From Spirulinaceae cyanobacterium SM2_1_0 (GTDB taxonomy: Bacteria > Cyanobacteriota > Cyanobacteriia > Cyanobacteriales > Spirulinaceae): a stretch of 34,503 bases of DNA. The stretch's first letter is position 1, and each line of letters opens with the position of its first letter. Position numbers and translations under genes: made by a program. Shown piece by piece: positions 3,773 to 34,503 of this stretch. The notes beneath the pieces were generated by a model that had not been told where the DNA came from, made no database searches, and saw only the letters and a list, made by a program, of their open reading frames with translations. The DNA lies in assembly GCA_012031265.1 (NCBI GenBank), contig JAAUTY010000053.1, positions 1 through 34,503 of the forward strand. The letters run 5' to 3'.

Positions 3773-3843
3773 CTGTCGTACCTCCAACAAGAATGCGGGT
3801 GACCTCAATCATAGCGCCTTGGCTGGGTCTAGCCGCAAGTGGC

Positions 3844-5217
3844 TCAGTCTGGGGGCGAGCTGGGGGCGGCGGCGGGGCGATCCGGCGAGGTGTGCCAGCG
3901 GCGCACTAAGGGTTGAGGGCGGTCAGGGGCGGCAGCGGGGGGTGATGCGGGTGCAGCCGACGGCGTCGATGGGCTAGGGTTCGCCGCCGGGTGGATGGGG
4001 GCGGTGGCAGCAGTGGCTGCCTCTGCCGCCGTCGCGAGTTGGTCGGCCACTTGTTGCACGCGGGCGGCTGCGGGTTCGACCTGCTGAGCGGTCTGGACTT
4101 GCTGCTCCAGTTGTTGCGTGGAGGATACGAGGTCGCTGAGGCCGTTCACAAGGTTAAGGAGGTTGTTGCGGAATTCGGGATCGCCGGTCAATTCATCGAG
4201 ATCCGAGGTGATCTTTTGGGTATTTTCAAAAGTGACGCGCGCTGAGTCGAGGAGTTGTTGGAGCGCCAGGAAGGTGAGGGGATTGTTGAAGGTCGCGGTG
4301 ATGTCGCGGAGGTTGGCCGAGGCCTGGGCTGCATTGGCTGATAGAGTTTCTAGGTTGGCGGCGATCGCCTGGGTATCCGTTGCCCCCAAGCTGGCATTGA
4401 GATTATTGGCGAGAATGCCCAATTCGCCACTGGTGCGGCTGATGCCATCGAGGGTCAGGCGGAGGTTGGTGCGATTTTCGGTGACTAGGAGGCTGAGGTT
4501 ATCCGAGAGTTGATTCACCTTGGCGGCCGTAGTGGTGTAGGCGCGTAGGGTGGTGTTGGCTGTGCCGCCGACCTGTTGCAACTGACGCGACAGCGGCCGG
4601 ACTTCTTCGCGGGCAATCTCCGCCAAGGCGGTCAATTCTTTGCTCAGCTCGGCAACATTGGCGGCGGCTTGGCTGGCATTCTCGGTTAGGTCATTGATAT
4701 TTTCAAAAAAACGCGGATCGGCAAAGCGATCGCTCAAAGCGACCGTGCTTTGGAGCGCGTCATCGAGGCTGACGCCGGACTCGCCTTCGAGCAGGTCGCC
4801 ATCGCAGAGGATGACTGTCGAGTCGCACTCGGGGTTGAGGGGGCCGGCGATCAGGGTTGTGTCCTCGAGCGTAGTCTGCGGCGTCATTTCGACAATCGTG
4901 TCGCTGATCAGGCCCGATTGGTTGGCGCTAATCATGATGTCGCTGGGCACGATCAGATCAGCCGGTGCGATCGAGACCGAGATTTCAATCCCGTTGGTAC
5001 CGGGGCGAATGGCGGTGATGCTGCCGACTTTGACGCCCCGGTAGCGAACCGCGCCGCCAATGGTCATGCCGTTGCTGTTGGCGAAGACAATGCGAACACT
5101 GTAACTGTCGCGGCCGAAGCGAAAGCCGCGCAGCCAGAAGGTCAGGCTGCCGAAGAGCAGTAACCCGACCAAGACTAATAGACCAACCGATCCTTCTCGC
5201 ATGGTGCGCGATCGCAT
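3844..5217 (-). CDS. MCE/MlaD-family lipid-transport protein (Ycf22-like)
   Basis: This 457-residue protein is the substrate-binding, periplasm-facing component of an Mla/TGD-type ABC lipid transporter. The start MRSRTMREGSVG is preceded by a strong GGAGGAG site. One N-terminal membrane anchor (about 10-30) leads into an MCE domain (about 37-115: RIVFANSNGMTIGGAVRYRGVKVGSI). Residues about 150-370 form a long helical coiled-coil rich in SANAAQASANLRD-like heptads, as expected for the MCE hexamer's periplasmic tube. The C-terminus from about 385 is low-complexity Ala/Pro. It forms an operon with the upstream ATPase, 95 bases apart. The permease (MlaE, Ycf63-like) is absent here and must be encoded elsewhere. 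The cargo is inferred to be membrane lipid. Confidence 0.88.
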   Translation of the reverse strand: MRSRTMREGSVGLLVLVGLLLFGSLTFWLRGFRFGRDSYSVRIVFANSNGMTIGGAVRYRGVKVGSITAIRPGTNGIEISVSIAPADLIVPSDIMISANQSGLISDTIVEMTPQTTLEDTTLIAGPLNPECDSTVILCDGDLLEGESGVSLDDALQSTVALSDRFADPRFFENINDLTENASQAAANVAELSKELTALAEIAREEVRPLSRQLQQVGGTANTTLRAYTTTAAKVNQLSDNLSLLVTENRTNLRLTLDGISRTSGELGILANNLNASLGATDTQAIAANLETLSANAAQASANLRDITATFNNPLTFLALQQLLDSARVTFENTQKITSDLDELTGDPEFRNNLLNLVNGLSDLVSSTQQLEQQVQTAQQVEPAAARVQQVADQLATAAEAATAATAPIHPAANPSPSTPSAAPASPPAAAPDRPQPLVRRWHTSPDRPAAAPSSPPD

Positions 5218-5312
5218 GAGTCTCCTCCTCGTAGAGCTACAGGGCAGATGTGGATGGGTCGCGGGCTACCGCAAGGCAGGGATTCGCGGGAGCAGGCAAT
5301 GATGGCATTGCT

Positions 5313-16181: not shown

Positions 16182-18728
16182 CTACGGCATCGGACAGACA
16201 CCATTGCGATTGGTGCTCGTCCTTTGGGTAATCGTCCCGGCAAAGTTATTGCTGGCTTGAATCGCGGCGCTGACGACGGGATTGACCGGTGGCGGCGGTT
16301 GGACTGTACCAATCCCAGAAAATTCAACCGAGGCCCCGGTCACCGGATTGTTGCCGAGAAAAAAGCCGAGGTCAACGCCATTCCCCGGATTAATGCTGGT
16401 ATTGCCGGTGAAATTCGTCACCCTGAAGATACCGCCCGGATTAGGTGCGGGGACATTGGAAACATTTGTAGAGTCAAAAAGAATACTACCATGCCGAGCA
16501 TTGCTGATCGTGTTGTTGGTGATACTGATGCCTTCGATGACGACCGCATCTGAGCCATTATTGAATACTTCAATCCCCGTCCCACAGGCGTAGGTATCTG
16601 AGCCAATATTACTAATCTGATTGTTACTAATCACAACATTGCTAATATGACTACCTATGGTAGGAATATGCCGAACGCCAATATTGATACCATCATCAGC
16701 AACATTGTCAATTATATTTTCAGAGATCGTGATATTTTCTGCCGTAGATCCACTGCTGACAAAAATATCAATACCATCGGCAAATTCAAGGGTTGCCGCT
16801 GGATTCAAAACATTTTGAATTGTATTTCTAGAAACCGCGATGTTGGTGAGGGCTGAATTATCAGCCGCTGTGATCCTAATACCATCAACTGTAGAATTTG
16901 AAATAATATTGCTGTTAATCACCGTGTTGGCGATCGCCCCGCCATTGATCGCCTCAAACAAGATCCCCTGTTGAGCTGCACCATTGATCGTGTTGCGGAG
17001 CAACATCGCGCCGCTGGTCACGCCATCGCCCTGGATATAAATGCCCCGATCGGCATTGAAGATGCGGTTGTCGCGCACGATGGCATCGACGACATCATTG
17101 CCGACAACTCCGTTGCTACCATTCGCCTGGATCTCAAATCCAGAGAGAGTTGAGCGATCGCCCAGCGACACCAAACCGTTCAGCGCGCCATTGGTCGCGG
17201 TCGTGCCGCGAATTGTCGGGAACTGCCCTGTGCCTGAGAGCGGAATTTGGATATTATCAAATTGTATTGTGTCAAGAGGTTGTACCGGGCCGCGTGAGAG
17301 TACCTGCACCCGATCCGGAATGCTGAAGCCGGGAATATCGGCATTGTTGCCAATGTCCACATAGGCGATGTGGTTGCCGTCGGATGCGGCCGCATTCAGT
17401 GCCGCTTGCACCGTGCCGAAGGGGTTTTCAAAATTGCCGTCGCCGCCAACAGCACCGAGTGTGACGTGTTGGAAAATCCAGGGCTGACCGGTCTCAGGAT
17501 TCCGCGCCACAACTTCAGTTTGAATAGCCGTATTAATGTCTGTCTCGACATCATTAGTGACGGCAATTGTCGGCTGGCGCTGTACTGCATCGACGAGACG
17601 AGGGAGATTGGTTTCGTTCTCTTTACGATCGCGACGCGGGCGATGATTGGGGAAGCTGTAGCCGACGGTGAATAGCAGATTTGTTCCAAGAAGACCATCA
17701 TGCTGCACTGACATACCCATGGTCAAGTCATCCGTTGGGCGGGCTTCTAGGCGGGCGCGCAATCCCCAAGTAGGAGCAATGCCTTGACCGGTGTAATGAT
17801 AGATACCACCATAGGCGCGTAGGTCGCGATTATCATCCCCAAAGGTGGCAATTTTGCCCCCCAGTTCGGCATCAAAACCGCCGAGCGCGACTTCATAAAA
17901 GCGGGATTCGCCAAAGGTGCGGAGTGTGTCGTAGAGCAGGAATTTGTTGCGGAAGTACAGGGATGTGACTTGGGTGCCGTTGTCGAAGCTGGTAGTTTGG
18001 TATTGGTTGCGGCTTTGGCCGAGCGGGAGGTAGCCATTGATACGGAAGTCGATGTTGCCGAGGCTCTCGAAGCCGAGACCGAGCTGATGAAATAGGCTGT
18101 TATCCGTTGCCCGGTTGTCGTAGGCGATGTAGCCGCCCCAAATGCGATCGCGCTCGACATCAAAGTCGCGATAGCCGAGGATTGCCGTCATCCCCGCATG
18201 GCTGTCATTGTCAAATCGCAGATTGCCTTCTAAAAAAAACAGGCTACGGTCGGAGGTTTGCAGCGGCAAAAAGCCATCCAAACGGGCAAAGCCGTCGTAG
18301 CCGCCACCGGAGCTGTTGTAGCCGACGGTGACCCGTGGCGAGAAGGCCATCGGGGTGACTGCCGAAGCTGAGGGGGATGATGGCGGCTGGCTCTGACTGA
18401 CTCGGGGCTGGGTTTCGCTAAACTCAATCGTCGGCGAGAGCGGCTCGAGCCAAGGTGCTTCTGCCAGAGTTTGGGCGGGGGAGGCAGTGGCGGGTAAACC
18501 GGCTGAGGTCTCAATGAGCGCTGCCGCCGACTGTGGCTCCGGTGGAGCGATCGCCACCGTTTGGACATCTGATGAAGTTTCCAGATCTGAGGTGCGATCG
18601 CCAGGCCGCTCCGATGCAACCGTATCCGGAAGCGTCACTGGGCTGGCCGCTGCATCGGTCATGGCGAGGAATGGGGCTAAAGTCACGACTGAGCCAGCGA
18701 CGGCGCAAGAAGTTGATTTTTTCGACAT
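16182..18728 (-). CDS. Outer-membrane inverse-autotransporter-like beta-barrel fused to parallel beta-helix
   Basis: This 848-residue protein starts MSKKSTSCAVAGSVVTLAPFLAMTDAAAS, a clear signal peptide. Residues about 30-125 are a Pro/Ser/Ala-rich linker. Residues about 128-361 are an aromatic-alternating beta region (PRVTVGYNSSGGGYDGFARLDGFLPL, FFLEGNLRFDN, WGGYIAYDNR, LLFTVGYSF) like the inverse-autotransporter barrel domain. After a linker with GGDGNFENPFGTVQAALNAA, residues about 490-790 carry parallel beta-helix repeats (ISNNQISNIGSD, ITNNTISNARHG, SENIIDNVADDGINIG). This barrel-first, passenger-last order fits surface display. ATG 18728 is chosen over TTG 18746; AGGGG lies upstream. 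The passenger stretch is locally AT-richer than its surroundings. The ligand or substrate is unknown. Confidence 0.8.
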   Translation of the reverse strand: MSKKSTSCAVAGSVVTLAPFLAMTDAAASPVTLPDTVASERPGDRTSDLETSSDVQTVAIAPPEPQSAAALIETSAGLPATASPAQTLAEAPWLEPLSPTIEFSETQPRVSQSQPPSSPSASAVTPMAFSPRVTVGYNSSGGGYDGFARLDGFLPLQTSDRSLFFLEGNLRFDNDSHAGMTAILGYRDFDVERDRIWGGYIAYDNRATDNSLFHQLGLGFESLGNIDFRINGYLPLGQSRNQYQTTSFDNGTQVTSLYFRNKFLLYDTLRTFGESRFYEVALGGFDAELGGKIATFGDDNRDLRAYGGIYHYTGQGIAPTWGLRARLEARPTDDLTMGMSVQHDGLLGTNLLFTVGYSFPNHRPRRDRKENETNLPRLVDAVQRQPTIAVTNDVETDINTAIQTEVVARNPETGQPWIFQHVTLGAVGGDGNFENPFGTVQAALNAAASDGNHIAYVDIGNNADIPGFSIPDRVQVLSRGPVQPLDTIQFDNIQIPLSGTGQFPTIRGTTATNGALNGLVSLGDRSTLSGFEIQANGSNGVVGNDVVDAIVRDNRIFNADRGIYIQGDGVTSGAMLLRNTINGAAQQGILFEAINGGAIANTVINSNIISNSTVDGIRITAADNSALTNIAVSRNTIQNVLNPAATLEFADGIDIFVSSGSTAENITISENIIDNVADDGINIGVRHIPTIGSHISNVVISNNQISNIGSDTYACGTGIEVFNNGSDAVVIEGISITNNTISNARHGSILFDSTNVSNVPAPNPGGIFRVTNFTGNTSINPGNGVDLGFFLGNNPVTGASVEFSGIGTVQPPPPVNPVVSAAIQASNNFAGTITQRTSTNRNGVCPMP

Positions 18729-20786
<2,058 letters not shown>

Positions 20787-31894: not shown

Positions 31895-32602
31895 ATGATC
31901 GTTTGCCCCAACTGCAATCACCAAAATCCTGAAGGCGCAACGCAGTGCGAAGCCTGCTACACGCCCCTGCCCGCCACCATGAGTTGCCCCAACTGTGGTG
32001 CGAGTGTTCAAGTGGATGCCAGCTTCTGCGGTCAGTGCGGGTTTGATCTGCGCCAAGTGGCCAGCAAACCTGACCCAGCGATCGCCGCTACAGTGGCGGG
32101 TGGTGGCACCCTCCCGGATGTCCCCGACCTGCAACCGGACAGCGAGAGCGAGCTAGAGTCGCTGCAAGTGGAGCTAGTCGAGGCGACTGAACCGATTGCC
32201 GCTCCCGCTACCCCGCCAATTCCCGACGCTGCCGAGCCAGCCGTCACCGGTAGCAGCGCCACACAGCTTCAGGGAACGACCGCTGCCCTACTCCATGTCC
32301 AAACCGATACCACGATTGAATTGTCGCCCCAGCTAACCGTGGTGCATCTGGGCAAGCCCGGTGGCGCTGTGCCCCCCGATATTGACGTGTCGGGCTTCCC
32401 CAGTTCCGAGATCGTCTCGCGCGTTCATGCCGACATTCGCATCGAGGCGGGTCTCTACTACCTCGAAGATATGGGCAGCTCCAATGGCACCTACGTCAAC
32501 CACATTCCGCTGCCACCAGGGAATCGTCATCGGTTGCGCCCGGGCGATCGCATTGCCCTCGGCAAGGAAGATAAGGTCACTTTCATTTTTCAGGCCGGCT
32601 GA
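31895..32602 (+). CDS. Zinc-ribbon / FHA-domain protein
   Basis: A 235-residue cytoplasmic protein with two N-terminal zinc ribbons (MIVCPNCNHQNPEGATQCEAC, about 4-21, and CPNCGASVQVDASFCGQCG, about 30-48). An acidic linker (about 60-130) follows, then a C-terminal FHA domain (about 135-235). The FHA core has LGKPGG, SSEIVSRVHADIRIEAGLYYLEDMGSSNGTYVNHIPLPPG and LRPGDRIALG, with the conserved Ser-Arg-x-His and Ser-Ser-Asn-Gly-Thr residues that bind phosphothreonine. It is likely an adaptor reading Ser/Thr-kinase phosphorylation. No kinase or phosphatase is adjacent. ATG 31895 directly precedes the first ribbon. Confidence 0.93.
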   Translation: MIVCPNCNHQNPEGATQCEACYTPLPATMSCPNCGASVQVDASFCGQCGFDLRQVASKPDPAIAATVAGGGTLPDVPDLQPDSESELESLQVELVEATEPIAAPATPPIPDAAEPAVTGSSATQLQGTTAALLHVQTDTTIELSPQLTVVHLGKPGGAVPPDIDVSGFPSSEIVSRVHADIRIEAGLYYLEDMGSSNGTYVNHIPLPPGNRHRLRPGDRIALGKEDKVTFIFQAG

Positions 32603-32781: not shown

Positions 32782-33309
32782 ATGAACTTTCTTCCTCTTG
32801 CTTTCGGTGTTGTAAGTACGCTTGGCTTCAGTTTGGCGATCGCCCAACCCGCCACGGCTGAAGCAATGCCACCCCTGCAACTGGCCCAAGTCCCAACCGC
32901 TTGCCCGCCCGGTTTTGTTCCCGAAACCCCAACGCCGTTCGAGCCGCGCTTCGGCTACAACCTCGAGTGCTGGGATCTGACCCGCAGTGGCATCATCTGC
33001 GTTAATAATCCCAACCCCGAATGCGGTGCTGACCTGCCCGATTCCTTCAGCTTCAATATTCCCGAACGCCGCTACGACCAGGGCTATCGCGGCTTCACCT
33101 GCGTCAACAACCCCAACCCTGAATGCGGCAATCCCGTGCGCTACGGCACACTCTACGGTGCTGAATACGAGTCAGAGCTACTCGATCGAACCGCTTCACT
33201 CTGGGCCGAATACGAAGCGTCGCACGCCAACCGTCCAACACTGCCCCCGTTAGCGGCTCCCCTGCCAGCATCCCCACCAGCATTCACACCAATCCCCGGC
33301 CTCTGGTAA
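32782..33309 (+). CDS. Small secreted protein with repeated CVNNPNPECG motif
   Basis: A 175-residue exported protein. The signal peptide is clear (about 1-27, LGFSLAIAQPATAEA). Mature-region features are CPPGFVPETPTP, an isolated C in YNLECWDL, and two copies of G-x-x-CVNNPNPECG spaced by 24 residues. A helical, acidic stretch (YESELLDRTASLWAEYEA) follows, then a Pro-rich tail. Six cysteines are consistent with three disulfides in the periplasm or outside. I do not recognise the family. There is no clear operon partner. The two motif copies differ only by synonymous codons, which argues that the protein sequence is under selection. Confidence 0.75.
   Translation: MNFLPLAFGVVSTLGFSLAIAQPATAEAMPPLQLAQVPTACPPGFVPETPTPFEPRFGYNLECWDLTRSGIICVNNPNPECGADLPDSFSFNIPERRYDQGYRGFTCVNNPNPECGNPVRYGTLYGAEYESELLDRTASLWAEYEASHANRPTLPPLAAPLPASPPAFTPIPGLW

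Positions 33310-34408: not shown

Positions 34409-34503
<95 letters not shown>

Follow-up and report, generated by a model that had tools for sequence, protein, structure and literature searches.

Does a short peptide that occurs twice in one small bacterial protein mark a functional element, and if so, of what kind of protein? The question is posed by a contig of the Spirulinaceae cyanobacterium SM2_1_0 (GenBank assembly GCA_012031265.1, contig JAAUTY010000053.1), whose positions 1 to 34,503 on the forward strand form the stretch of 34,503 nucleotides analysed here and referred to as the window. Within it, a 175-aa open reading frame (ORF) at 32782-33309 encodes the peptide CVNNPNPECG two times. 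An earlier note, written from the letters of the window, regarded the repeat as a functional Cys/Asn-rich loop, perhaps metal- or glycan-binding, belonging to an unrecognised secreted family and kept by purifying selection. Below, we follow these proposals through the relatives of the protein, and then consider the last residues of the protein, which that note overlooked while judging family and selection correctly.

A small protein family with paired cysteines

The features of the ORF to which the text refers are the following.

32782-33309, forward strand: ORF encoding an exported-looking protein of 175 aa, GLW-tailed and carrying the CxNN motif twice (translation, orthologues)
32782-32862, forward strand: probable signal peptide spanning roughly residues 1-27 (small-residue sites after a hydrophobic stretch; cleavage by eye)
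32902-32904, forward strand: codon of Cys41, predicted partner of Cys63 in an optional pair (co-presence in family members)
32968-32970, forward strand: codon of Cys63, in YNLECW (cysteine co-presence in family members)
32998-33027, forward strand: first CVNNPNPECG, loop C73-x7-C81 (C73, N75, N76 and C81 invariant in 13/13 aligned orthologues)
33100-33129, forward strand: second CVNNPNPECG, loop C107-x7-C115 (C107, N109 and C115 invariant in 13/13; N110 is Ser in two)
33178-33237, forward strand: L..RT..LWAEYE.. segment, conserved and belonging to a C-terminal module that recurs on other bodies (alignment, profile matches)
33238-33288, forward strand: Pro-rich linker whose length and sequence differ between relatives (orthologue alignments)
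33289-33306, forward strand: candidate C-terminal tag P-I-P-G-L-W (GLW invariant in 13/13 orthologues)
33307-33309, forward strand: stop codon TAA after GLW (sequence)

Translation bears out the coordinates and the identical ten-residue peptide of the two copies. Four silent third-position differences had been counted between the two 30-base copies; the differences are indeed silent and all at third positions, but there are five of them (Val, Asn, Asn, Pro and Gly), the Gly codon pair GGT/GGC having been overlooked. All five differences fall on the 6.0 synonymous sites of the pair, and none on its 24.0 nonsynonymous sites. Because the likeness of the flanks ends after about 13 residues (GxxCVNNPNPECG, by eye), we regard the repeat as a short motif rather than a duplicated 34-aa domain, and a recent duplication as its source was rejected on comparison of the two copies. 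The C-x-NNPNP-x-C repeat is beyond chance: a 27-base degenerate pattern for it has six matches in 4 of 388 class-level genomes and its reversed-pattern control has none. Three of the six lie in the source genome, these being the two window copies and a paralogue on contig C75. That paralogue has a single copy, with the upstream flank of copy 1 joined to the downstream flank of copy 2, the arrangement that would be expected had one copy been lost by recombination between the motifs.

With only six synonymous sites, and with copies that do not stem from a recent duplication, silent drift between the copies is a weak argument for selection when taken alone, and orthologue comparisons were brought in for this reason. 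Whole-gene dN/dS is 0.059 for one orthologue pair (G009/G005) and 0.138 for another (G012/G011). Two identical motif copies occur only in the source genome among the 13 aligned orthologues; the others vary the remaining positions, and C-x-N-[NS]-x4-C is found twice in each. Judged from these sequences, this is a genuine gene kept by purifying selection, in agreement with what had been proposed.

A search of 99 genomes, the source included, with the window protein gave matches in 15: the source, 12/12 of the other Spirulinaceae, G035 and G022. The G022 match, which contains three internal stops, was judged to be chance, as was a match on source-genome contig C14 (E 0.002, one internal stop). 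Named carriers of relatives include Spirulina subsalsa FACHB-351, Spirulina sp. CS-785/01, Spirulina sp. CCY15215 and a cyanobacterial MAG. Searched up to E 10, neither Pfam nor NCBIfam has a family that matches the window protein, which looks exported; with relatives in every other genome of its own family, the description as an unrecognised secreted family is upheld. A profile search over 195 genomes of the order found matches in 20, and also picked up small ORFs from families f12, f15, f24 and f29 that carry one to three copies of the CxNN motif but no tail. Loci L174, L175, L177 and L179 hold small exported-looking ORFs from other cyanobacterial families with one to three CxNN..P..C.NP-like motifs; in two the motif stands right at the C-terminus, and the GLW tail is absent.

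Directly upstream of the window ORF, at 31895-32602, lies a gene for a double zinc-ribbon and FHA-domain protein. In S. subsalsa FACHB-351 (L129 4257-5501), a one-motif and a two-motif copy are arranged in tandem, and the gene upstream of them has almost the same start as the one for this protein; in the source genome the one-motif copy is on a different contig, C75. Elsewhere in the window, an 854-aa exported-looking protein (16182-18746, reverse strand) may, as judged by eye, combine a beta-barrel with a right-handed beta-helix region after it, and what we take to be the 3' end of psbA, encoding the C-terminus of the D1 protein, lies at the window edge (34413-34503, reverse strand).

The cysteines of the family offer some guidance as to what the motifs may be. 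Mature cysteines are even in number and paired in 16/16 family members, proteins that are related and do not represent 16 independent events. Every motif cysteine is paired at C-x7-C, and two further cysteines, equivalent to Cys41 and Cys63, are both present in seven of the 16 proteins and both absent in nine; the one extra Cys, in L002, is located in its signal peptide. Since mature cysteines come in pairs, and the optional pair is gained or lost together, the CxNN motifs are likely disulfide-closed loops, each of which would form a small loop outside the cytoplasm. Invariant Cys and Asn residues in both copies are also what a loop binding a metal ion or a glycan might display, as the earlier note had it, and the Cys/Asn motif is indeed kept in the 13 aligned orthologues. 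Its suggested metal or glycan role nevertheless appears improbable: we saw no sign of either ligand, even and paired cysteines with an optional extra pair fit disulfides better, and a comparison with PDB sequences yielded nothing convincing, its sole match (E 0.93) covering residues 2-28. The structure prediction that the note had recommended was obtained for the window protein with five related sequences, but with a mean pLDDT of 43 it was uninformative, and a helix at 133-149 was of low confidence.

A C-terminal GLW ending on many exported-looking proteins

All 13 aligned orthologues end in GLW, two of them as PPGLW rather than P[VI]xGLW, and the linker before this ending is not conserved. 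The source genome encodes three more ORFs ending in P-[IV]-x-G-L-W: a fasciclin (C25), an orphan (C48) and the one-copy paralogue (C75). To place these in context, tail searches were run that required a stop codon (or TGG, admitted through TRR) directly after GLW, and all counts given here refer to terminal GLW only. The pattern P[VI]x-GLW-TRR has 45 matches in 13 Spirulinaceae genomes, none of which lacks a match, whereas the reversed control has 11; the swapped order P[VI]xLGW has 14 matches in the same genomes, four of them with a true stop. The reading frames of 44 matches were read and one (G008:C8) was judged from its letters, having TGG and no stop. Long ORFs are ended by 36 of the 45. 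The other nine are noise: three have TGG in place of a stop, two are six-residue PIEGFW frames, one has a stop interrupting its frame immediately ahead of GLW, and three are short TGA-ended frames. The 36 tailed ORFs comprise 14 members of the CxNN family, seven of an orphan family (KSVVGTQVLVELD), seven fasciclins, four FecR-like proteins (L034, L048, L056 and L124, labelled by eye), two DUF928 proteins, one SH3-like protein (L058, also by eye) and one PhoX whose start is cut off; a Pfam scan of L034 and L058 gave no match. The residue before GLW, left free in the pattern, is R in 16, P in 15, Q in four and E in one.

At the level of sequence, this ending is shared across Cyanobacteria by many ORFs that are unrelated to one another and have export-like starts. 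A stricter pattern, P[VI]RGLW-TRR with Arg as CGN only, matches 77 times, in 48 of 386 genomes (76 matches with a true stop, three reading GFW); the reversed control has eight matches, and the swapped-order control 13 matches in 13/386 genomes, ten with a true stop. Frames were read for 37 of the 77: a contig end truncates two, one is noise, and the remaining 34 close ORFs of at least 100 codons. A loose pattern has matches in 116/386 genomes with much noise: among 30 loci listed, 14 end ORFs of at least 100 codons, one is contig-cut, eight are short frames and seven have no stop. Family f33 has 18 loose-pattern matches but no convincing ending, since R, P, Q or E stands ahead of GLW in just a single match, an 11-residue frame; the small-genome genus g98 has no loose-pattern match and no convincing GLW ending in the sample.

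Taken together, the loci fetched yield 93 distinct ORFs that reach at least 100 codons and end in GLW; they fall into 23 sequence clusters, the largest of which merges several bodies through the shared tail. Residue counts over these 93 ORFs overstate the consensus, because 40 of the regions were picked by eye as motif-like (38 with tailed ORFs of at least 100 codons, two with short frames only), whereas the Spirulinaceae census is unbiased; a further 20 regions gave nine with tailed ORFs of at least 100 codons and eleven with only short frames of 3 to 40 residues. Among 30 tailed proteins scanned with Pfam, ten have domains above cut-off, from eight families (DUF928, PhoX, PG_binding_1, DUF1400, OMP_b-brl, META, FecR and Fasciclin), and twenty have none. 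The fasciclin, FecR, DUF928 and DUF1400 domains are absent from the window protein in a Pfam search up to E 10. Several orphan exported-looking proteins of f8 and f14 (L109, L111, L113-L117, L067-L069, L173, L176 and L180) are GLW-ended in the copies read, and in most the mature part starts with a GH.TY-like sequence followed by IGR or LGR; these orphans were found via the tail, and untailed copies could be missed.

The association with export can be put in numbers. A single crude rule assigns a signal-peptide-like start to 72/84 tailed ORFs and to 37/155 neighbouring ORFs of similar size. The window protein is among the twelve tailed ORFs that fail this rule, probably for want of Lys or Arg before its hydrophobic stretch. 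Inspection by eye shows a signal peptide in ten of these twelve, while the frames read for the other two, L093 and L188, lack an N-terminus; both are barrel-like and GLW-tailed, and a frameshift or a different start is possible in them. Fasciclins provide a control in which the fold is held constant. In Spirulinaceae (six genomes with a fasciclin of seven tested, export and lipobox judged by eye), the tail is present on 6/6 exported non-lipoprotein copies, on 0/6 signal-less paralogues and on 0/1 lipobox copy. Because fasciclins here are tailed only when exported, the tail in Spirulinaceae goes with export and not with fold. Outside Spirulinaceae, 0/17 fasciclins are tailed, several of them being exported, and since f33 and g98 also offer no convincing ending, the tag would seem dispensable in some lineages.

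Might the shared ending reflect ancestry only, one tail having been shuffled onto several families with no current function? A longer C-terminal module, made up of the RT..LW segment and the linker, is detectably homologous between a few families, and by profile it recurs on different proteins with a best E of 2.4e-8 in family f14 and of 1.2e-6 on the source genome's own contig C48. Nonetheless, GLW is exact in distant lineages while linkers vary freely, very different bodies bear it, and the fasciclin paralogues of Spirulinaceae have it only when exported, all of which makes ancestry without function very unlikely.

Candidate readings of the tail

The 30 aa before GLW have a Pro fraction of 0.25, compared with 0.07 in up to 100 aa upstream (93 tailed ORFs), and this Pro-rich stretch suggests a flexible tether. 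The tail itself would be a short linear tag whose free C-terminus is bound on the periplasmic side by one putative envelope receptor; a single reader is suggested because so strict a tip ends so many kinds of body. Such a receptor would dock or sort varied exported proteins (fasciclins, FecR-like proteins, a phosphatase, DUF1400 proteins and barrels) to one place or route. We put at roughly one half the probability that GLW is such a docking or sorting tag, and with it that Cyanobacteria possess an unrecognised export-linked system, one whose dedicated receptor in the periplasm would recognise P-[VI]-[RPQ]-G-L-W, held out on a Pro-rich tether, at the very C-terminus of many exported proteins of unrelated kinds. 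Under this dedicated-receptor reading, the tag would be present in several lineages and lost or replaced in others, f33 and g98 among them.

The main rival is recognition by a protease. Proteases of the Ctp/Tsp and HtrA/Deg types recognise free hydrophobic C-termini, and GLW could be a periplasmic proteolysis or quality-control signal for one of these PDZ proteases, setting the turnover of a protein and not its location. The export-like starts of tailed ORFs accord with this, as does the position of the tail after a flexible-looking linker, much like a protease handle. Yet the motif is strict, with R, P, Q or E before GLW in 36/36 ORFs of the Spirulinaceae census, and degrons of this kind tend to be loose; known PDZ ligands, moreover, do not usually have Gly at position -2, and the lineages seemingly without the tag presumably have Ctp/Deg proteases all the same. 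On balance we hold a proteolysis signal to be possible but rather doubtful.

A C-terminal aromatic residue also belongs to the known beta-signal of barrel proteins, and GLW might correspondingly be an outer-membrane assembly signal read by the BAM complex. One cluster of four tailed proteins is barrel-like, and L092, the one of the four that was scanned, matches OMP_b-brl above cut-off. In this very cluster, however, a strand-like KIGFRYRFG precedes the tail, which comes after the last barrel sequence. By the topology rule for barrels, what follows the last strand is on the periplasmic side, and because of this location the tail of the barrel-like proteins should face the periplasm. No barrel domain was matched in 29 of the 30 tailed proteins scanned, and the tail is Pro-rich and not strand-like: a C-terminal beta strand with alternating hydrophobics and a final Phe or Trp is not what the 93 ORFs end in, given their Pro fraction. 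Assembly by BAM is accordingly an unlikely function for GLW, and we favour docking or sorting over this, as over proteolysis and simple ancestry.

Known C-terminal signals show where the docking or sorting tag would resemble established systems and where it would not. In SSB-Ct and the FtsZ C-terminal peptide, a variable flexible linker leads to an invariant short tip whose free C-terminus recruits partners; these are single cytosolic families, whereas the GLW tip is common to many exported families. DegS/DegP and Ctp/Tsp read a free hydrophobic or aromatic C-terminus in the periplasm, which resembles the GLW tail, but GLW, known here from sequences, has a far stricter consensus and sits on native proteins of many body types. 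The beta-signal read by BamA is likewise a C-terminal aromatic on exported proteins, from which GLW departs in following Pro-rich rather than strand-like sequence and in not being confined to barrels. Signals of the PEP-CTERM and LPXTG types consist of a C-terminal transmembrane helix and then basic residues. The window protein ends ...PAFTPIPGLW, and by eye no tailed ORF has a C-terminal hydrophobic helix with a basic end; unlike PEP-CTERM, the GLW tail thus has neither transmembrane helix nor basic cluster, is preceded by a Pro-rich linker and stops with the motif. No NCBIfam sorting-signal model was matched by the window protein up to E 10, and ten other tailed proteins searched up to E 1 gave only four weak, sub-cut-off, non-sorting matches. 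The likeness to PEP-CTERM/exosortase is that a short C-terminal homology region is common to unrelated exported proteins and patchy across lineages (PMC1569441). Among the open-access papers that our searches listed, none appears to describe a GLW tail of this kind; most subscription papers fall outside this scope.

If a dedicated receptor docks or sorts these proteins, its gene might lie near theirs. A gene-neighbour comparison of 382 ORFs at 65 loci produced no convincing receptor; a few gene families recur beside different tailed genes, each at a handful of loci. Genes for YkuD-type L,D-transpeptidases occur within about 1 kb of GLW-tailed genes at three of the 65 loci, which represent two lineages, two of the loci being related: L128 has two tandem L,D-transpeptidase genes (3829-5238) beside the fasciclin of the source genome, and the related loci L193 (1280-1945) and L194 (2695-3357) have one exported L,D-transpeptidase each, beside a tailed gene different from that of L128. 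A profile built from these four L,D-transpeptidases found no others in the 65 loci, and they are for this reason kept as a weak lead toward peptidoglycan attachment.

The CxNN proteins themselves form a new, small family of exported proteins, with loops predicted to be closed by disulfides. Should the docking or sorting reading of GLW hold, a tag shared by so many bodies would provide a direct handle on the sorting of envelope proteins, with one peptide bait expected to find one receptor, and many orphan exported proteins could be grouped by their last six residues.
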